Assembly: GCF_000377785.1 (NCBI RefSeq)
Contig: NZ_KB898724.1
Location: 1 to 64,000, forward strand
Direction of reading: 5' to 3'
Length of the DNA stretch: 64,000 nucleotides
From: Thioalkalivibrio sp. ALJ24
GTDB lineage: Bacteria; Pseudomonadota; Gammaproteobacteria; Ectothiorhodospirales; Ectothiorhodospiraceae
Below the pieces are notes generated by a model, which worked only from the letters and a program-made list of their open reading frames with translations, was not told the DNA's origin and ran no database searches. A program made the position numbers and the translations under genes. Of this stretch, positions 11,433-47,711 are shown in pieces; positions within the stretch are counted from its first letter, which is position 1; each line of letters begins with the position of its first letter.

Positions 11433-12718
11433 GTGTAGCGCAGTCCTGCCGACAGGATGTTCACCCGCCCGCGGGTGCTCCCGCTGTATTCCACCGTGCC
11501 GGTATCGAATTCGCGGGTCAGGTCGATGTCCTCGCGCGAGACATCCACGTACGAGTAGCCGAGGTCGATGCTCAGGCGGTCGGTCGGGTGCCACGAGGCC
11601 CCCAGCGACAGCCAGGTGCGGTCGCCATCCGGGGTGCGGGTGGAGCGGTAGCCGTCACGCGTGGGCGTGCGGTCATACTGGATGCCGCCGCGCAGGGTCC
11701 AGTCCGGGTTGAGTTCGTATTCGGCCCCGACCGCCAGGGCGTAGCTGTTGCGATAGTTCTGCTCCAGCTCCTGTTCGGCGAGCGGGTTGGCGGACTCCAC
11801 CGCGATCTCGTCGAAGTTCGACCACCGGAACCAGGTGTACTGCACCAGCCCGGTCCAGCGTTCGTTGAAGCGGTGGCTGAGCGCCGCGCTGGCGATGTCC
11901 GGCAGCTTGAGCTCGGCCTCGCCGGTTGCGATCACCGGTCGGCTGATCGGACCGTTTTCGGGCATGGATACCCGGGCGGTGCCCTTGAGCGTGTGGGTCA
12001 CTCCGCTGCGATAGTGCAATCCGAGACGGGTGGTGTCCGCGAGGTCGATCAGTACGCCAATGTTGTAGCCCACGTCCCAGCTGTCGCCTTCCAGGCGGTA
12101 TTCGCCGTCGGTGGCCGGGTCCGCTCCCGTGGCGTCGGGGATGGCCGCGCGCAGCGTGGCATCGGCGTATTGCAGATCGATGCCGCCGCCGATGGAGACC
12201 CGGTCGCTGACCCGGACCGCGATGCTGGGCTGCAGGTTGAGGACCTGCAGGTCGGTCTCCAGCGAATCGTAGCGGGCGAAGAAATCGTCGTCGTACTCGC
12301 CCTTGAGGCCGAAATGGGTGCCCAGGCCGAAGCCCAGCCACACGCGCTCCGACTGCGGCTCGGCCCAGTAGAAATTGGGCAGCGGGGTGGGGTCGTAGGG
12401 GTTGTCGCCCTGGCTGCCGTCCACGTCAAAGGTGTTGGCGTTGGTAAAGCTGGAGCCGTCGTTGCGGGTGCTGGAGTGCGGGAACAGCAGATGCGCGCCG
12501 GCCTGCACCTCGGCGCTTTCCAGCCGGGTCATGCCGGCCGGGTTGAAGTAGATGGTGCTGGCGTCGTCGGCGAAGGCGGCCTCGCCGGCATAGGCCCGCC
12601 CCAGTCCGGTGACCCCCTGCTCCTGGAGGTAGAACCCGGCGGCCAGCACGGCCGTCGGGGCAAGGCCCAGGGTGGCGGCGGTGATGGCGGCGGCGAGATG
12701 TCGTGGCTTCGGCTGCAT
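11426..12718 (-). CDS. FadL/OmpP1/TodX outer-membrane transporter
   Basis: This 430-residue outer-membrane beta-barrel is of the long-chain fatty acid and hydrophobic-compound transporter family. A signal peptide covers residues 1 to about 26. The mature N-terminus AGFYLQEQGVTGLGRAYAGE and the NPAGMTRL hatch motif are diagnostic. The C-terminus ends ILSAGLRYTY, an aromatic-terminated barrel strand. ATG 12718 has GGAGGAAGGC immediately upstream; an upstream in-frame ATG at 12787 lacks such a site and would destroy the signal peptide. Substrate cannot be told from sequence. Confidence 0.93.
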   Translation of the reverse strand: MQPKPRHLAAAITAATLGLAPTAVLAAGFYLQEQGVTGLGRAYAGEAAFADDASTIYFNPAGMTRLESAEVQAGAHLLFPHSSTRNDGSSFTNANTFDVDGSQGDNPYDPTPLPNFYWAEPQSERVWLGFGLGTHFGLKGEYDDDFFARYDSLETDLQVLNLQPSIAVRVSDRVSIGGGIDLQYADATLRAAIPDATGADPATDGEYRLEGDSWDVGYNIGVLIDLADTTRLGLHYRSGVTHTLKGTARVSMPENGPISRPVIATGEAELKLPDIASAALSHRFNERWTGLVQYTWFRWSNFDEIAVESANPLAEQELEQNYRNSYALAVGAEYELNPDWTLRGGIQYDRTPTRDGYRSTRTPDGDRTWLSLGASWHPTDRLSIDLGYSYVDVSREDIDLTREFDTGTVEYSGSTRGRVNILSAGLRYTY

Positions 12719-40566: not shown

Positions 40567-40726
40567 CGGTCTCGTGAGAGGGCATGGCGGGCAGGGCCGG
40601 CGGGATCCCCGAAAAACAGGGAATAGGACGGCCCGACACACGTCTTAAGGGTGTGCAGACTGCAAGCTTAGGAGAAAAACCGGTTTGGCGCGACCGCTTC
40701 TTTCGTTCGTCGCTCGCGGGGCGTGC

Positions 40727-40755
40727 TTGACAGGAAGTTCCTAATATTAGAGTAT
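40727..40755 (+). promoter_or_regulatory. Sigma-70-type promoter of the candidate small RNA
   Basis: A perfect TTGACA is at 40727-40732. The -10 is either TAGAGT (40748-40753, 15-base spacer) or GAGTAT (40750-40755, 17-base spacer). The surrounding AT-rich stretch (CCTAATATTAGAG) is exceptional for this GC-rich DNA. Transcription would start near 40760. Confidence 0.65.
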
Positions 40756-40759
40756 CTGC

Positions 40760-40855
40760 ATACGCTGAATGTTGTCCCCCCTGACAGCATCGGCGGACTC
40801 CTCCATCCTCCTTTGGTGGTTTTCTTGGCGCGGGCTCGTTCCCGCGCTTTTTTTT
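40760..40855 (+). ncRNA. Candidate small RNA with an anti-Shine-Dalgarno hairpin loop
   Basis: The predicted transcript is about 95 bases from the promoter above to the terminator at 40828-40855. CCATC (40803-40807) pairs with GGTGG (40815-40819), with one T-G wobble, and exposes a 7-base loop CTCCTTT, complementary to AAAGGAG ribosome sites. CTCCTCC just before it could do the same, and the 5' part has a C-run. Loops with CUCCU motifs are a recognised feature of several trans-acting bacterial sRNAs. Alternatively it is the attenuated leader of the kinase gene that starts 37 bases later. No known Rfam family is recognised. Confidence 0.55.
40828..40855 (+). terminator. Strong Rho-independent terminator
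   Basis: GCGCGGG at 40828-40834, a CTCGTT loop, then CCCGCGC at 40841-40847 and eight T. It is the strongest terminator in the window and has no protein-coding gene upstream on this strand to serve, which is the main evidence for an RNA gene here. Confidence 0.92.
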
Positions 40856-40891
40856 GCCCGTTTTTCGCATTGCCCGGCTCCGCACCCTACC

Positions 40892-42385
40892 ATGGCGACC
40901 ATGTGGAGACGTATCCGGTTTTTTCTGACCCGGCGCCTGAACAGCCTGCGCACCGTTGTGGTGATGTACATCCTGCTGCCACTGCTGCTGCTGGTCGGGG
41001 GGGTGGTTACGCTGGGCCTGCAGGAATTCCAGACCCAGATGGAAGAGCGCATGCAGGACGACATCGAGCTGGTGGCGCGTACCATCCGTCTGCCGGTGTC
41101 CACGGCCATCGTCGAGCAGGACGTGGCCGCGGTGCAGGAATCGCTGGACTCGCTGTTCCAGATCGACGAGGTGTTCGGCGTCTATGTCTACGATGCCGAC
41201 GGCGACACGGTGGCGACCTCCGGGCCCCCCAGCCCGTCGCTGCAGCATCGCGGCGAGGTCCAGGCCATCAGCGAGGCCGGCACCCTAGGGGCGTTCGACG
41301 AACACCGCGGGCGCGAGGTCTTCTCCTTCTTTCTGCCGCTGGCGGATCACGCCGGACGCATCGTGGGCCTGTTGCAGGTCACCCGTGACGTGTCGCCCTT
41401 TCGTGCCTATGTTGCCCAGCTGCGCTGGCAGGGGGCAGTGCTGACCGGGGCGGCGACGGTGGTGTTCCTCGCGCTGGTGCTGATCGGTTACCAGCGAACG
41501 GTGGGGCGTCACGTGCAACGCCTGACCGGGGTGATGCACGACATCGGCGACGGCGTGCGTGGTGTGCGCGCTCCGGAGACCGGGCCGGCGGAACTGCGCC
41601 ACATGGCGGTCACCATGAACGGCATGCTGGAACGGCGCGAGGCCTCGGAGGCGGCGCTGGAGGCGCAGCGGGCCGAGCAGCGCGCACTGGAAGAGAAACT
41701 GCGGCATTCGGAGAAACTTGCCGCAATCGGCCAGCTCGCGGCGGGGGTGGCGCACGAACTGGGGACCCCGCTGGGGATCATCGCGGGGCGAGCCCAGCGT
41801 GCGGCTCGGCGCCTCGACCCGGATGATCCGGCGCGCAAGGAGATGCAGGAACTGATGGCCGAGACCGAACGGGTCGAGACCATCGTCCGCCAGTTGCTGG
41901 ATTTCGCCCGGCGCAATCCGTTGCAGCGCCGCAACGTGGATCTGGATGAGCTCGTTCGGGAACTGGTGGCGCGCGTGCGCGGTCGGGGGCAGTGTGCCGA
42001 CGTGAGTTTCGAACTCGACGGTGAGCCCCTGCAGGTTCCCGCGGATCGCCTGCGCCTGGGGCAGGCACTGGAAAACCTGATCGAGAACGGCAGCCAGGCG
42101 GCCCGGTCCCGCGTCCGGATCGCCTGGGAGGCGCTGGAGGACGAAGTGCGGGTGACAATTGCGGACGATGGCCCCACCGGCGGCGGCGGGATCGATGCGC
42201 AGACCGCCGAGCGCCTGTTCGAGCCGTTTTTCACCACCAAGCCCGCCGGCGAGGGGACCGGACTGGGGCTGGCGGTGGCGCAGGTCGCCCTGGAGGATCA
42301 CGGCGGGGTGATCGAGCTGGATCGCAGCGAACCCCGGGAAACCCGTTTCGTGCTGCATCTGCCGCGTGAGGCCGGTTCGTCATGA
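40892..42385 (+). CDS. Sensor histidine kinase of an NtrC-type two-component system
   Basis: This 497-residue kinase has a TM segment at about residues 24-46 (VVVMYILLPLLLLVGGVVTLGL). A periplasmic domain of about 140 residues follows, then TM2 (GAVLTGAATVVFLALVLIGY), a HAMP linker, a phosphorylation motif GVAHELGTPLGIIAG and an ATPase domain (ENLIENGSQA, FEPFFTTKPAGEGTGLGLAV). The layout resembles ZraS-like envelope sensors. No good ribosome site precedes ATG 40892 or the second ATG at 40901, so the exact start is uncertain. Its last 4 bases (ATGA) overlap the response regulator. Confidence 0.9.
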   Translation: MATMWRRIRFFLTRRLNSLRTVVVMYILLPLLLLVGGVVTLGLQEFQTQMEERMQDDIELVARTIRLPVSTAIVEQDVAAVQESLDSLFQIDEVFGVYVYDADGDTVATSGPPSPSLQHRGEVQAISEAGTLGAFDEHRGREVFSFFLPLADHAGRIVGLLQVTRDVSPFRAYVAQLRWQGAVLTGAATVVFLALVLIGYQRTVGRHVQRLTGVMHDIGDGVRGVRAPETGPAELRHMAVTMNGMLERREASEAALEAQRAEQRALEEKLRHSEKLAAIGQLAAGVAHELGTPLGIIAGRAQRAARRLDPDDPARKEMQELMAETERVETIVRQLLDFARRNPLQRRNVDLDELVRELVARVRGRGQCADVSFELDGEPLQVPADRLRLGQALENLIENGSQAARSRVRIAWEALEDEVRVTIADDGPTGGGGIDAQTAERLFEPFFTTKPAGEGTGLGLAVAQVALEDHGGVIELDRSEPRETRFVLHLPREAGSS

Positions 42386-43779
42386 GCGCACCGGAGGCCG
42401 TGCTGGTGGTGGAGGATGACCGCGGCCACCGCGAGCTGCTGATCGAGGAACTGCGCGAGGCCGGATATCCGGTGGTCGCCGTGGGCAGCGCGGAGGAGGC
42501 CGTCGAGTCCCTGGAACAGCAACCCTTCGGTCTGGTGGTCAGCGATCTGCGGCTTCCGGGCGCGGACGGCTTCCGGGTGCTGGAGGCCACGCGGGGCGTC
42601 GTCCCGGAGCCGGGCTTCATCATGCTGACGGGCTTCGGCACCATCGACCAGGCAGTGTCCGCGCTCAAGGCCGGGGCGGACGATTTCCTTACCAAGCCCG
42701 TCGACCTGGACCACCTGAGACTGTCCGTGGACCGGGTGATCGAAGCGCGGCGGCTGCAGGCCGAGGTGCGCCAGTACCGCGAGCTGCTGGCGACCGGCGA
42801 AGACTTCCACGGCATGCAGGGCAGCAGCCCGGCGATGCTGCGCCTGTACGATCTGATCCGGCGGATCGCGGCGTCCGATGGCTCGGTCCTGGTCACCGGC
42901 GAATCGGGGACCGGCAAGGAACTGGTGGCCCGGGCACTGCATGCCGAGAGCAGCCGCAGCGACGGCCCCTTCGTGGCGCTCAACTGCGCCGGCATCCCCG
43001 AGACCCTTCTGGAGTCGGAGCTGCTCGGGCATGTCGCGGGTGCGTTTTCGGGCGCGCGGGGCGCACGTCGCGGGCTGTTTCGCGAGGCGGACGGCGGCAC
43101 CCTGTTCCTCGACGAGATCGCCGAGATGCCGGTGGCCATGCAGAGCAAGCTGCTGCGTCTGCTGCAGGATGGGCGGGTGCGCCCGGTGGGCGGCAACGAG
43201 GAGGTGGCTACCGACGTGCGCATCGTCGCCGCGACGCATCAGGACATCCCCGAACGGATCGCCGAGGGGCGCTTTCGCGAAGACCTCTACTACCGACTGG
43301 AGACCTTCCGCATCGAGATCCCGCCGCTGCGCGACCGCGGCGAGGATATCGAGCGCCTCGCGCTGCAGTTCCTGCGCCAGCATGCGCTGGCACACGGGCT
43401 GCCGGAGCGCCGCCTGAGTCCCGAGGCGATGCGTGCCCTGGTCCGGTACAGCTTTCCCGGCAACGTGCGTGAACTCTCCAGCCTGATGGAACGGGCGGCT
43501 ACCCTTTCCGCCGGGGAACAGATCGAGTTGCAGGACCTGCCGGACCGGGTTCGCGACGCGGTTGGCACTTCGGGGCCGGGACCGGGTGCGATCGCAGCGC
43601 CCGTGACCTCCGGGGGCGGGAGTTCCGACGAACGGTGGCCGACCCTGGCCGAGCTCGAGACGGACTACATCCGGCGCGTGCTGGAGTACTGCGACGGCAA
43701 CAAGCAGCGTGCGGCGCGCATTCTCGGGATCGGTCGCAAGACGCTCTATCGCAAGATCGGCGAAGCCGAATCCTCCTGA
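42382..43779 (+). CDS. Sigma-54-dependent NtrC-family response regulator
   Basis: This 465-residue activator has its receiver phospho-acceptor at Asp55 (VSDLRLPGADG). The AAA+ domain has Walker A GESGTGKE (173-180) and LFLDEIAEMP. The C-terminal Fis-type helix-turn-helix is LEYCDGNKQRAARILGIGRKTLYRKI. The sigma-54 contact loop reads GAFSGA (220-225) instead of GAFTGA, a conservative Thr to Ser change. It is translationally coupled to the kinase. Immediately downstream lie palindromes and a sigma-54 promoter, so its target is most likely the next two genes. Confidence 0.93.
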   Translation: MSAPEAVLVVEDDRGHRELLIEELREAGYPVVAVGSAEEAVESLEQQPFGLVVSDLRLPGADGFRVLEATRGVVPEPGFIMLTGFGTIDQAVSALKAGADDFLTKPVDLDHLRLSVDRVIEARRLQAEVRQYRELLATGEDFHGMQGSSPAMLRLYDLIRRIAASDGSVLVTGESGTGKELVARALHAESSRSDGPFVALNCAGIPETLLESELLGHVAGAFSGARGARRGLFREADGGTLFLDEIAEMPVAMQSKLLRLLQDGRVRPVGGNEEVATDVRIVAATHQDIPERIAEGRFREDLYYRLETFRIEIPPLRDRGEDIERLALQFLRQHALAHGLPERRLSPEAMRALVRYSFPGNVRELSSLMERAATLSAGEQIELQDLPDRVRDAVGTSGPGPGAIAAPVTSGGGSSDERWPTLAELETDYIRRVLEYCDGNKQRAARILGIGRKTLYRKIGEAESS

Positions 43780-43812
43780 AATCCGCGTCGCCAGGTCCGG
43801 CGATGGCCATGG

Positions 43813-43857
43813 TGATACGTATCAATCTGACACACTGGGTCGAAGTGACCCGTGTCA
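43813..43857. promoter_or_regulatory. Two adjacent palindromes, probable enhancer sites for the NtrC-type regulator
   Basis: TGATACGTATCA at 43813-43824 is a perfect 12-bp palindrome. Next, TGACAC at 43828-43833 pairs with GTGTCA at 43852-43857, and inside it GGGTC (43837-43841) pairs with GACCC (43847-43851). They lie 90-130 bases before the sigma-54 promoter, the usual distance for upstream activator sites. Which one binds the regulator cannot be told. Confidence 0.65.
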
Positions 43858-43942
43858 CCCTCGATTTTTCTGCGTGTTTTCGTTGGGCTTGATCCGGCCT
43901 ATCCCCCTGTTTTTGATTGCTTTTGAGTAAGTCCTTCGCGAT

Positions 43943-43958
43943 TGGCCCGCGCCTTGCA
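43943..43958 (+). promoter_or_regulatory. Sigma-54 promoter
   Basis: TGGCCCGCGCCTTGCA matches the consensus TGGCACG, four bases, TTGCA at all but one position. The GG and GC elements have correct spacing. The start of transcription would be near 43970, leaving a 55-base leader before the Gly/Pro-rich gene. It lies directly behind a gene for a sigma-54 activator. Confidence 0.88.
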
Positions 43959-44025
43959 AACACTTGGGTTACGGGCAGTCGGCAAGGCCGGCACCCTGAA
44001 TGTCCCGCAATTTGCAGGAGGTCGA

Positions 44026-44676
44026 ATGACAGCATTCCGCAAGACGGCCATGGCGGTAGCCCTGGGCTCCCTGATGAGCTTCGGCTTCTCCGGGGCTGCC
44101 AGTGCCCAGGCGGGCCAGCCCGAAGGTATGCCGCCTGGTGGCGGCGGGGCACCGTCGCAGGGACAGCCGCCCGAGGCGGGCGGGGCGCCGCCTCCGGGCG
44201 AAACCAGCCCGCCGCCCGCCGCCGGAGACCAGGGCGGCCTGCCGCCGGGCGGCTCTGGCGAGGAGCGTGGCCTCCCGCCGGGTGGTGAACCGGGTGCGCC
44301 GGGCACCGGGGCTCCCGAGCAGGCGCCCCCTGGTCAGGAGCCCCCGGGCGCGGGAGCCCCTCCGGCACCGGATGCGCCCCCGGGCAGCACCGGTCCGGAG
44401 CGGACCGACCCCCGGGGCGATGCACCGGGTGACGCCCCGGGCGGTGCCCCTGGTGGCCCCGCCGAACCGGGTGGTGCGCCGCCCGCCGGGGGTGATGCCC
44501 CGGGCGGCGGTCCGCCACCTGCCGATCCGCCCGGTGGCGCGCAACCGCCTGCGGGCGCAGAACCGCCTCCGGGTCCCGGCGAGGGTCCCGAGGCAGATCC
44601 GGACCTCGAGGGCGGGATGCAGCAGCCCCCGGAAGAAGATCTGCCGCCGGGTATGGAGTCCGACTCCGACCGATAA
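44026..44676 (+). CDS. Secreted low-complexity Gly/Pro/Ala/Glu protein, sigma-54 controlled
   Basis: This 216-residue protein has a Sec signal peptide (FRKTAMAVALGSLMSFGFSGAASAQ, cleavage after about residue 27). Essentially the whole mature part is built from Gly, Pro, Ala, Glu, Asp and Gln in loose repeats such as PPGG, GAPG, EPGGAPP and DAPG. It has no Cys and almost no aromatic or large hydrophobic residue, so it should be intrinsically disordered. It ends DLPPGMESDSDR. GCAGGAGGTCG precedes ATG 44026. I recognise no family. The signal peptide closely resembles that of the next gene, suggesting a shared origin or route. A matrix, spacer or periplasmic sink role is speculation. Confidence 0.8.
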   Translation: MTAFRKTAMAVALGSLMSFGFSGAASAQAGQPEGMPPGGGGAPSQGQPPEAGGAPPPGETSPPPAAGDQGGLPPGGSGEERGLPPGGEPGAPGTGAPEQAPPGQEPPGAGAPPAPDAPPGSTGPERTDPRGDAPGDAPGGAPGGPAEPGGAPPAGGDAPGGGPPPADPPGGAQPPAGAEPPPGPGEGPEADPDLEGGMQQPPEEDLPPGMESDSDR

Positions 44677-44741
44677 CCGACATTCAATGCAGTAGTGAAC
44701 TGACAACTGATCGAATGACCGATCAACCAGGAGCAATGATC

Positions 44742-45242
44742 ATGATGAACTTTCGCAAGACCGCACTCGCCTTCGCCCTGACGTCCATGTTCGCCATCGG
44801 TGGCGTGGCCTCCGCGCAGACCGGCGGCGACGGCATGGGTGGAGGCGCCCAGGGGGGTGCCCCTGAAGGTGGTGCCCAGGGTGGCGCCCCGCCGGAAGGT
44901 GGTGCTCAGGGCGGTGCCCAGGGCGGTGCCCCGCCGGAAGGTGGTGGCGCGCCCATGCAGCAGGAAGCCCCCGAGGTGGACCTGTCCGATGAAGACATCG
45001 ACACCTTTGTCGAGGCCTTCGTGAGCGTCCAGCAGGTCCGTGAGGACTTCGCCGACCGGCTGCAGGAGGCCGAGGACGAGACTCAGGCGCAGCAGATGCA
45101 GCAGGAGGCCCAGGACGAGATGGTCTCGGCCGTGGAAGATGCCGGCATGAGCGTCGAGGAGTACAACGAGGTCGCGATGGCCCTGCAGAACGACCCCGAG
45201 CTGATGCAGGAAGTGCAGGAGCAGGCCGAAAGCGCGATGTAA
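44742..45242 (+). CDS. DUF4168 protein with a Gly-rich repeat linker
   Basis: This 166-residue exported protein has a signal peptide (residues 1-26, VASAQ). Residues 27-73 are a linker of GGA(P/Q)xGGAQ repeats. Residues about 80-160 form a DUF4168-type helical domain (LSDEDIDTFVEAFVSVQQV, with MSVEEYNEVAMALQNDPEL near the end). DUF4168 proteins are small envelope or periplasmic proteins of unknown role. AGGAG lies 8 bases before ATG 44742; in-frame ATGs at 44715 and 44736 are less well placed. It lies 65 bases after the Gly/Pro-rich gene with no terminator between, so both are probably one sigma-54-driven transcript. Confidence 0.85.
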   Translation: MMNFRKTALAFALTSMFAIGGVASAQTGGDGMGGGAQGGAPEGGAQGGAPPEGGAQGGAQGGAPPEGGGAPMQQEAPEVDLSDEDIDTFVEAFVSVQQVREDFADRLQEAEDETQAQQMQQEAQDEMVSAVEDAGMSVEEYNEVAMALQNDPELMQEVQEQAESAM

Positions 45243-45263
45243 CTCCCGCTGAGTGCACGCGAC

Positions 45264-45295
45264 GGGGCCGTCCTTCGGGGCGGCCCCTTCTTTTT
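45264..45295 (+). terminator. Rho-independent terminator with UUCG tetraloop
   Basis: GGGGCCGTCC at 45264-45273, loop TTCG, then GGGCGGCCCC at 45278-45287, and TTCTTTTTG. The C(UUCG)G loop is an unusually stable tetraloop. It closes the DUF4168 operon. Confidence 0.93.
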
Positions 45296-45317
45296 GTGCG
45301 GAGGAAACATGCGTCCC

Positions 45318-45346
45318 TTGAATAACGGTGCATGACACGGTATTCT
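45318..45346 (+). promoter_or_regulatory. Probable promoter of rplM-rpsI
   Basis: TTGAAT at 45318-45323, exactly 17 bases, then TATTCT at 45341-45346. Each hexamer matches the sigma-70 consensus at four of six positions. It lies 42 bases before the rplM start and after the previous terminator. Confidence 0.6.
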
Positions 45347-45387
45347 TCCGCGCTTTCTGAATCGCCCCGACATCGGAGCATCGATAC

Positions 45388-45816
45388 ATGAGCACCATCA
45401 GCGCCAAGCCGGCAGAAGTCGAACGCGACTGGTTCCTTGTGGACGCCAGTGACAAGACCCTGGGTCGACTCGCCACGGAGATCGCGCGTCGGCTGCGCGG
45501 AAAGCACAAGCCCGTTTACACGCCGCACGTGGACACCGGTGACTACATCGTCGTGATCAACGCCGAGAAGATCCGGGTTTCGGGCAACAAGGCTTCCGAC
45601 AAGATGTACTATCGCCACACGGGGTATCCGGGCGGCATCAAGGAAGCCAATTTCACCCAGATGATCGAACGTCATCCGGAGAAGGTTCTCGAGCTGGCCG
45701 TCAAGGGCATGCTGCCGCGGAACCCGCTCGGCCGGTCGATGTTCCGCAAGCTCAAGGTCTATGCCGGCAGCGAACACCGGCACGAGGCCCAGCAGCCGCA
45801 GCCGCTGGACATCTGA
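45388..45816 (+). CDS. rplM: 50S ribosomal protein L13
   Basis: This 142-residue ribosomal protein matches the usual length. [28 protein letters not shown] and the [10 protein letters not shown] and [10 protein letters not shown] motifs are diagnostic. GGAG precedes the ATG. It is followed by rpsI after 40 bases, the standard rplM-rpsI operon. Confidence 0.98.
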
Positions 45817-46293: not shown

Positions 46294-46367
46294 TGGGGGA
46301 TCGTCTAGCGGTAGGACTACGGACTCTGACTCCGTCAACCCAGGTTCGAATCCTGGTCCCCCAGCCA
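46294..46367 (+). tRNA. tRNA-Gln (anticodon CTG)
   Basis: The acceptor stem TGGGGGA (46294-46300) pairs with TCCCCCA (46357-46363), then G and an encoded CCA. The anticodon stem ACGGA/TCCGT encloses the loop CTCTGAC, so the anticodon is CTG at 46326-46328, reading CAG. The T arm carries GGTTCGAATCC. Length is 74 bases. Its 3' end is duplicated downstream. Confidence 0.97.
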
Positions 46368-46466
46368 TCCATGGAAAAGGGCCCCCTCGCGGGGCCCTTT
46401 TTCATGGATATGATCGGCCAGGATGAGAACCTGGAAGGTTCGGCGGAGCGCAGCGGAGCAACGCAC
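46352..46466 (+). repeat. Direct repeat copy 1: tRNA-Gln 3' end, terminator and flank
   Basis: 115 bases starting in the T arm (CCTGGTCCCCCAGCCA) and running through the terminator and a downstream stretch (GAACCTGGAAGGTTCGGCGG). They recur 164 bases further on with four mismatches by my count. Confidence 0.9.
46367..46409. terminator. Terminator hairpin after tRNA-Gln
   Basis: A 19-base left arm starts at the final A of the tRNA (ATCCATGGAAAAGGGCCCC), followed by loop CTCGC and a matching right arm with one imperfect pair. The inner GC stem followed by TTTTT on plus, and by TTTT on minus, makes it bidirectional. Confidence 0.85.
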
Positions 46467-46515
46467 ACGCGCAGCGTGGGCGGCCCGAAGGGTGAGGCGC
46501 GCAGCGCCGAATAAC

Positions 46516-46630
46516 CCTGGTCCCCCAGCCATCCATGGAAAAGGGCCCCCTCGCGGGGCCCTTTTCCATGGATATGACCGGCCAGGATGAGAACCTGGAA
46601 GGTTCGGCGGAGCGCAGTGGCGCAACGCAC
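46516..46630 (+). repeat. Direct repeat copy 2 of the tRNA-Gln 3' end and terminator
   Basis: It repeats 46352-46466. Only the last 16 or so bases of the tRNA are present (CCTGGTCCCCCAGCCA), with no T loop or anticodon arm, so this is not a second tRNA gene. The hairpin here (46531-46573) is a perfect 19-bp stem. The 49 bases between the copies are unique. Confidence 0.9.
46531..46573. terminator. Second copy of the tRNA terminator, perfect 19-bp stem
   Basis: Left arm 46531-46549, loop 46550-46554 and right arm 46555-46573 are fully complementary. As no gene ends here, it is a by-product of the duplication, though it would still block read-through. Confidence 0.8.
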
Positions 46631-47642: not shown

Positions 47643-47711
47643 CCGCGCTTCCTCGCACCGTGACGGTCCGCCGTTGCCGGGGGTGGCAGCGGGCCAAAGG
47701 AGTTTTTCCGC

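Follow-up and report, generated by a model that had tools for sequence, protein, structure and literature searches.

The locus and its parts

The window, i.e., the whole stretch of 64,000 nucleotides of Thioalkalivibrio sp. ALJ24 that was analysed, carries at 40727-40855 a promoter and a predicted small RNA (sRNA) of about 95 nt that folds into three hairpins, including its terminator. It is followed on the same strand by the genes of a sensor kinase and of a sigma54-interacting response regulator and, further downstream, by rplM (Table 1).

Table 1. Features of the sRNA locus and of its downstream neighbourhood (window coordinates)
Feature	Position	Strand	Basis or remark
-35 element TTGACA	40727-40732	+	exact match; promoter conserved across loci
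Conserved stretch TAATATTA, then -10 hexamer GAGTAT	40742-40755	+	position counts in 80 TTGACA-bearing loci
Predicted small RNA, about 95 nt	40761-40855	+	from promoter to T run; fold z -5.2
5' hairpin with C-rich loop	40764-40794	+	shape conserved, sequence not
Near-invariant core ACTCCTCCATCCTCCTTTGGTGGTT	40797-40821	+	22-mer exactness, alignment, fold
CUCCUCC site within the core	40798-40804	+	
Core hairpin CCUCCA/UGGUGG	40800-40805 with 40814-40819	+	one U-U mismatch
Loop of the core hairpin UCCUCCUU	40806-40813	+	
Putative target-pairing stretch CUCCUUUGGUGGUUUUCUUG	40808-40827	+	20 uninterrupted pairs with a FadL/OmpP1-type leader
Intrinsic terminator	40827-40855	+	8-pair stem 40827-40848; T run 40848-40855 (T8)
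HAMP/HisKA/HATPase sensor kinase, genus-specific downstream neighbour	40892-42385	+	Pfam; synteny
Sigma54-interacting response regulator	42382-43779	+	Pfam
rplM (ribosomal protein L13)	45388-45816	+	Pfam; 4.5 kb downstream of the RNA

An earlier sequence-only reading had proposed here a perfect TTGACA promoter with an AT-rich -10 element, a hairpin exposing CTCCTTT and a very strong terminator. The -35 element is indeed exact and is conserved: an exact TTGACA stands no more than 130 nt ahead of the core in 81 of 127 de-duplicated loci, whereas mononucleotide shuffles give 4.6 on average. Furthermore, 72 of these 81 elements start 52-82 nt before the core and have an AATATTA-GAAAAT-like sequence at -10 distance, the family consensus of this region being roughly AATATTA-GAAAAT (80 loci with TTGACA). 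The -10 hexamer of the window (40750-40755, read from the sequence) is present at a 17-nt spacing but is weak. It matches the consensus at only three of six positions, which explains that a consensus scanner listed no promoter, and the case for the promoter thus rests on conservation. Transcription would start near 40761.

The predicted RNA is more stably folded than shuffled versions of it (z -4.1 for 40758-40856; z -5.2 for 40761-40856). The same applies to the 55 nt preceding the core, with z<-2 in 80 of 127 loci; CCCCC is found in this segment in 14 of the 127 loci versus 2.0 in shuffles. As proposed, CTCCTTT is exposed in a hairpin: it lies at 40808-40814, in the loop and closing pair of the small core hairpin. 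However, the conserved element is the whole of 40797-40821 and is thus longer than the anti-ribosome-site loop initially described. The terminator is strong and is further supported by covariation, all seven modelled pairs being changed on both sides among 43 sequences (94.4% of cells paired). The core hairpin is devoid of covariation because the core hardly varies.

Genomic neighbourhood

In Thioalkalivibrio, the kinase gene is downstream of the RNA in 28 of 28 loci, and a gene of a metallo-hydrolase is upstream in 27 of them, the last locus being cut short. In the window, the chosen kinase start lies 36 nt after the T run of the RNA. This neighbourhood was seen only in this genus. Among the 157 distinct loci with enough flank, the downstream gene is rplM in 62, the kinase in 27 and purH in 8; queA/tgt flank the RNA in 31, malQ/purL in 6, and none of these neighbours was found in 23. 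Within 2 kb upstream of the RNA, 20 of the 157 loci carry coq7 (on the opposite strand in 19) and 41 carry a gene of a [2Fe-2S] protein. Since the neighbours change while the core stays, the RNA does not serve one neighbour.

The region between the RNA and rplM in the window (40727-45816) includes the kinase, the sigma54 regulator and low-complexity ORFs. As rplM lies directly downstream of the RNA in many other lineages, its distance of 4.5 kb here suggests that the two-component genes were inserted between them, likely in a lineage-specific manner. Further downstream, Rfam RtT RNA adjoins a tRNA gene on the + strand (46402-46531 and 46294-46364), and overlapping ORFs of this region share repeated peptide segments.

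The copies found beside purL and/or malQ (L094, L099, L104, L110, L138, L144 and L173, the latter assigned by context only) come mostly from metagenome-assembled genomes (MAGs) of symbionts. They retain CTCCTCCATCCTCCTTTGGT but lose the GG that closes the core hairpin, and thus offer a natural variant for testing its stem.

Conservation and distribution

With 40700-40870 as query, 84 of 144 genomes, including that of the window, have a BLAST match at E<=0.1, the weakest of these matches being due to chance. Within the genus, 27 of the 29 other genomes have a strong match, one a chance-level match and one none. The 22-mer CTCCTCCATCCTCCTTTGGTGG is identical in 59 of the 70 BLAST-found copies that were extracted, a sample that is seed-biased, although less so than the rows of a scan with an exact 19-mer. 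In the latter rows, conservation of the 19 bases is built in, and they were excluded as evidence of core conservation.

A covariance model was built from 43 aligned sequences, drawn from 69 representatives (26 were left out, at least four as chance or truncated matches and the rest for brevity). In the genome of the window, it finds one strong copy (69.2 bits at 40795-40854), the next best match reaching 20.8 bits. At the scale of the class, 155 of 369 genomes match at E<=0.001 and 102 at E<=1e-9, a part of the 155 by construction, since 23 of the 43 rows come from relatives that overlap the scanned genomes. The covariance search in relatives, suggested together with the sequence-only reading, thus reveals a conserved structure. 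Gammaproteobacteria as defined by GTDB include Betaproteobacteria, so some of the 155 genomes may be betaproteobacterial. Among the 299 genomes of a phylum scan, 10 outside the class match, with a best score of 31.3 bits; therefore, homology is not claimed for matches below about 35 bits.

The 19-mer scan gave at least 119 exact matches in 117 stretches. Of the 119 matches listed, 115 precede, by at most 65 nt, a run of five or more T. Among the matches listed, four are devoid of such a run: one is cut by the end of the locus, one has a broken run and two belong to tandem copies with short runs. The carriers, also among the matches listed, include Thioalkalivibrio, Thiocapsa, Halochromatium, Thiohalocapsa, Sedimenticola, Candidatus Thiodiazotropha, Thiothrix, Thiomargarita, Arenicella, Acidiferrobacteraceae and one Gallionellaceae MAG. 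No copy was found in viral contigs by a 19-mer scan or in plasmids by BLAST.

Some genomes harbour several copies. Tandem arrays of three to four sRNA copies, about 100-205 nt apart, were observed in a Thiotrichaceae MAG (L131:5782-6021), and similar arrays are found in two genomes of one family (G405:C22:888613-889162, G405:C1:222950-223295; G320:C3:141779-142056), with seven copies listed for G405. A divergent second element is present in two Thioalkalivibrio genomes (L069 at about 1545-1632, i.e., G004:C3:89457-89506, and G021:C25:26228-26277); it is possibly a paralogue, and in L069 it consists of ACCACCCCTTCCTCCTTTGGTGGT and a terminator. Besides, 10 of 124 upstream regions (e.g., L026, L052, L148 and L172) have a TGCANTGCA palindrome, about 60-200 nt ahead of the core, versus 0.7 in Markov shuffles. 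It resembles the operator of PhaR, the PHA regulator, and the RNA may therefore be controlled by carbon storage in some lineages.

Candidate targets

The target search covered 603 start windows, predicted by a simple gene finder on 847 kb (30%) of the genome. A thermodynamic ranking over these 603 starts performed no better with the core than with six permuted cores; hence, it revealed no broad regulon and was replaced by a search for the longest uninterrupted helices. The longest helix contains 19 Watson-Crick pairs, compared with 10 for the second and with maxima of 10-15 for 30 Markov-shuffled cores. With one additional G-U pair, this helix joins positions 40808-40827 of the RNA to a leader over 20 uninterrupted bases that span the Shine-Dalgarno (SD) region of a gene located elsewhere in the genome (G000:C4:7983(-)). 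The product of this gene is an outer-membrane protein of the PF03349 family (OMPP1/FadL/TodX).

This complementarity is conserved within the genus. The RNA variant ending with GGTGGTTTTCTTGG is carried by 16 of the 28 Thioalkalivibrio loci, 15 of which come from genomes with an intact FadL leader, the FadL-type gene of the sixteenth (G007) being cut by a contig end. In all 15 genomes that combine the RNA variant GGUGGUUUUCUUGG with an intact leader, CAAGAAGACCACCAAAGGAG is identical, while the leader bases further upstream diverge. Seven other genomes of the genus have distant FadL-type homologues: one gene is truncated and six leaders are devoid of the site. Among these six genomes, five have an RNA carrying another stretch after GGUGG, and no RNA was found in the sixth. 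The mRNA of the FadL/OmpP1-type transport protein is thus the best-supported candidate target in the genus. Another gene start, at 12718 (-) in the window, resembles by eye that of a FadL-type protein and has a weaker predicted pairing (-27.4 kcal/mol).

A pattern search for ACCACCAAAGGAG in 144 genomes led to 30 fetched sites outside the sRNA genes. Among them, 24 are located 6-8 nt ahead of the start codon of an ORF with 60 codons or more: 15 precede the same FadL-type gene in 15 Thioalkalivibrio genomes, including that of the window, three precede a DsrE-like gene in a sister genus and six precede other genes, such as those of phosphoglycerate kinase and catalase. It should be emphasized that ACCACCAAAGGAG outside sRNA genes (30 fetched sites and two unfetched, paralogue-like ones) is not commoner than its reversed control (33 matches). 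The signal resides in position and conservation, not in frequency, and AAAGGAG alone favours start codons. As AAAGGAG is itself an SD sequence and the control pattern is as frequent, only the FadL-type and DsrE-like cases are put forward. The DsrE-like mRNA of the sister genus could form 14 uninterrupted pairs (G-U included) in five of nine leaders and 12-13 pairs with one mismatch in the four others; a tenth genome has only a distant paralogue. The site is weaker and differently placed in Thioalkalivibrio, and the DsrE identity comes only from a sub-threshold match of the first 50 residues.

Other candidates did not hold. The DUF3096 gene at about 47700, given as an example of target by the sequence-only reading, has a leader (at 47696) with nine contiguous Watson-Crick pairs, and 20 other leaders, several with extrapolated starts, have only 4-8. 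This corresponds to an ordinary SD match that is unconserved across the 21 leaders. The start regions of the response regulator, the kinase and rplM gave no long pairing but interrupted duplexes (-27.0, -23.0 and -29.1 kcal/mol).

Proposed function and alternative explanations

Very probably, the locus encodes a genuine regulatory sRNA that masks the sites where ribosomes dock on selected mRNAs. This central claim of the sequence-only reading, an sRNA with an anti-ribosome-site loop, is strongly supported by its conservation, structure, promoter and pairing with the FadL-type leader. The sRNA would have a sigma70-type promoter and a terminator of its own. The CU-rich core, which is near-invariant, would imitate the anti-SD end of 16S rRNA and, together with the sequence 3' of it, pair with the ribosome-binding site (RBS) of selected mRNAs, thus blocking their translation, probably on Hfq. 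Besides the promoter, the RNA has two features of Hfq-type sRNAs, i.e., an intrinsic terminator and a T8 tail, and hfq is present in the genome of the window. For the FadL-type leader, the pairing bases expected to matter are GGUGGUUUUCUUG, and repression of this protein would lead to a control of transport through the outer membrane. From what was computed here, i.e., conservation, structure, promoter, changing neighbourhoods, a 20-bp duplex with the mRNA of a distant gene, conserved in all 15 genomes with the matching RNA variant and an intact leader, and the presence of hfq, we infer expression, Hfq binding and repression by the window RNA; Hfq-dependent repression by a closely similar core is established for relatives. 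We hold with good confidence that it is a trans-acting RBS-blocking sRNA, probably Hfq-dependent, and the counterpart outside Betaproteobacteria of the RF02278-like sRNAs S17, bdhR1 and NcS27.

The position beside a sensor kinase had also led to the proposal of a cis-acting attenuator or leader, whose terminator would stop transcription unless a signal permits read-through to the kinase or, elsewhere, to rplM. The short distance to a kinase gene borne by the same strand fits this proposal, as does rplM, which lies downstream on the same strand in all 62 loci mentioned above. However, where the RNA is followed by queA/tgt or malQ, that gene is borne by the opposite strand and the core is unchanged, so that the constant and co-oriented gene that characterizes attenuators and ribosomal protein leaders is lacking. 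Furthermore, no alternative antiterminator fold was seen in the five structures folded, and attenuation leaves unexplained both the core and its 20-bp complementarity to a distant mRNA. Since other genera have the core beside rplM, queA/tgt, purH or malQ/purL and the kinase context was seen only in one genus, attenuation of the kinase cannot be the conserved role, and a cis-acting device is very unlikely. A dual device, in which the promoter and a leaky terminator of a trans-acting sRNA would also feed the kinase/sigma54 regulator pair and couple the RNA to this two-component system, would account for the constant presence of the kinase in the genus and for the little room left for a separate kinase promoter after the T run. 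It would also echo the repression of a sigma54 activator by S17 in Bordetella (available text of PMC11722255). Nevertheless, adjacency can be passively inherited and the response-regulator, kinase and rplM starts lack a long pairing, which makes this coupling rather improbable.

The likeness of the core to the 16S anti-SD could also indicate a growth-inhibitory RNA that competes with 16S rRNA for SD sequences generally instead of regulating chosen mRNAs, and overexpression of NcS27, a relative of RF02278, attenuates planktonic growth (available text of PMC5688073). Such a competitor is highly improbable: conservation does not stop at the anti-SD part but runs on into GGUGGUU, the specific pairing with one target covers 20 bp, and overexpression of S17 left the exponential growth of E. 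coli BL21 unimpaired, with a modest effect on entry into stationary phase (available text of PMC11722255). Even S17 is thus not clearly toxic. A coding role, i.e., a short coding sequence or an N-terminal extension of the kinase, has a negligible probability, although an ATG at 40769 is in frame with the kinase (open ORF 40769-42385) and 140 of 175 loci have one or more open frames across the 96 nt around the core. Kinase homology begins only after the terminator, the spacer after the core varies in length and no frame is consistently open (66, 74 and 73 of the 175 loci, by frame). Coding potential was therefore rejected, in agreement with the initial view that these 95 bases or so hold no protein gene.

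A broader reading, to which we give an even chance, is that one ancestral sRNA of Gammaproteobacteria sensu lato, including Betaproteobacteria, predates the splits of many orders and acts as a general RBS-blocking hub, nearly all of its family being hidden by the Rfam cut-off. The 22-24-nt core would be frozen because pairing uses both strands of its hairpin, while the bases immediately 3' of it (UUUUCUUGG here) would change with the main target of each lineage, such as the FadL-type mRNA in Thioalkalivibrio. A family described in betaproteobacteria would thus become a widely and strictly conserved sRNA of the class, with carriers that include, among the matches listed, purple sulfur bacteria, Thiothrix relatives, animal symbionts and Thioalkalivibrio. 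For these groups, the openly licensed papers searched gave no comparable sRNA. A target with 20 bp of pairing is now available for testing, and the natural series of RNA variants allows one to ask why an sRNA seed stays frozen while its targets change. Moreover, the covariance model could let annotation pipelines find an sRNA that the Rfam cut-off now mostly misses.

Comparison with known small RNAs

The RNAs ar14, suhB/mmgR and SorY, CU-rich sRNAs chiefly of Alphaproteobacteria, share with the window RNA a CU-rich stretch before the terminator. They were rejected as relatives, their Rfam models reaching only 16-17 bits each (E 0.2-0.3), with no sign of shared origin. MicA and RybB are sRNAs that repress outer-membrane proteins. 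The window RNA would resemble them in blocking the RBS region of the mRNA of such a protein. Both are named in the available text of PMC12235514.

The best Rfam match of the window RNA is RF02278 (Betaproteobacteria_toxic_sRNA), with 31.5 bits (E 6.7e-5) for a gathering threshold of 50 bits. As this curated score is not reached, the RNA is called a variant of the S17/bdhR1 kind and not a member of RF02278. In the class scan, RF02278 matches 103 of 369 genomes at E<=0.001 and passes its cut-off in two. The window RNA aligns over its full length to model positions 1-64, with its parts in the same order. The double-hairpin RNAs RF02278, bdhR1 and NcS27 of Burkholderia share with it the CUCCUCC site, a CU-rich loop and the terminator (available text of PMC5688073 and PMC10987360). 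However, by reading, the stem and loop of the RF02278 consensus hairpin differ from CCUCCA/UGGUGG and UCCUCCUU, and the window RNA has an extra 5' hairpin.

The closest parallel is S17 of Bordetella pertussis, an sRNA linked to RF02278 by its authors. According to the available text of PMC11722255, which does not mention Gammaproteobacteria, S17 is an Hfq-dependent repressor that acts at the RBSs of mRNAs. Under the name CT_433, it and one other sRNA are present in more than 73% of the significant Hfq chimeras of B. pertussis (available text of PMC12235514). Like the window RNA, S17 has a CU-rich single-stranded site and a hairpin loop ahead of its terminator, pairing at RBSs, a sigma70-type promoter and conservation across orders (PMC11722255). 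In contrast, S17 is cut by RNase E from a 190-nt precursor to 67 nt (PMC11722255), whereas about 95 nt are predicted from its own promoter for the window RNA, and their target sets differ.

The genomic context also links these RNAs. S17 adjoins coq7 (available text of PMC11722255), and in the two genomes above the RF02278 cut-off, coq7 is located 588 and 693 nt from the hit. In the genome of the window, coq7 and the RNA are on different contigs. Intermediate cores are found at shared loci: those resembling CTCCTCCACCATCCTCCTTTGATGG neighbour coq7 and rplM, and CTCCTCCACCCTCCTTTGGTGG neighbours rplM and the [2Fe-2S] gene. The presence of coq7 near the RF02278 hits above cut-off, near some of the loci described here and near S17 points to one ancestral locus. 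From this locus, the architecture and the intermediate sequences, the window RNA and the S17/RF02278-like sRNAs appear to share a common descent.
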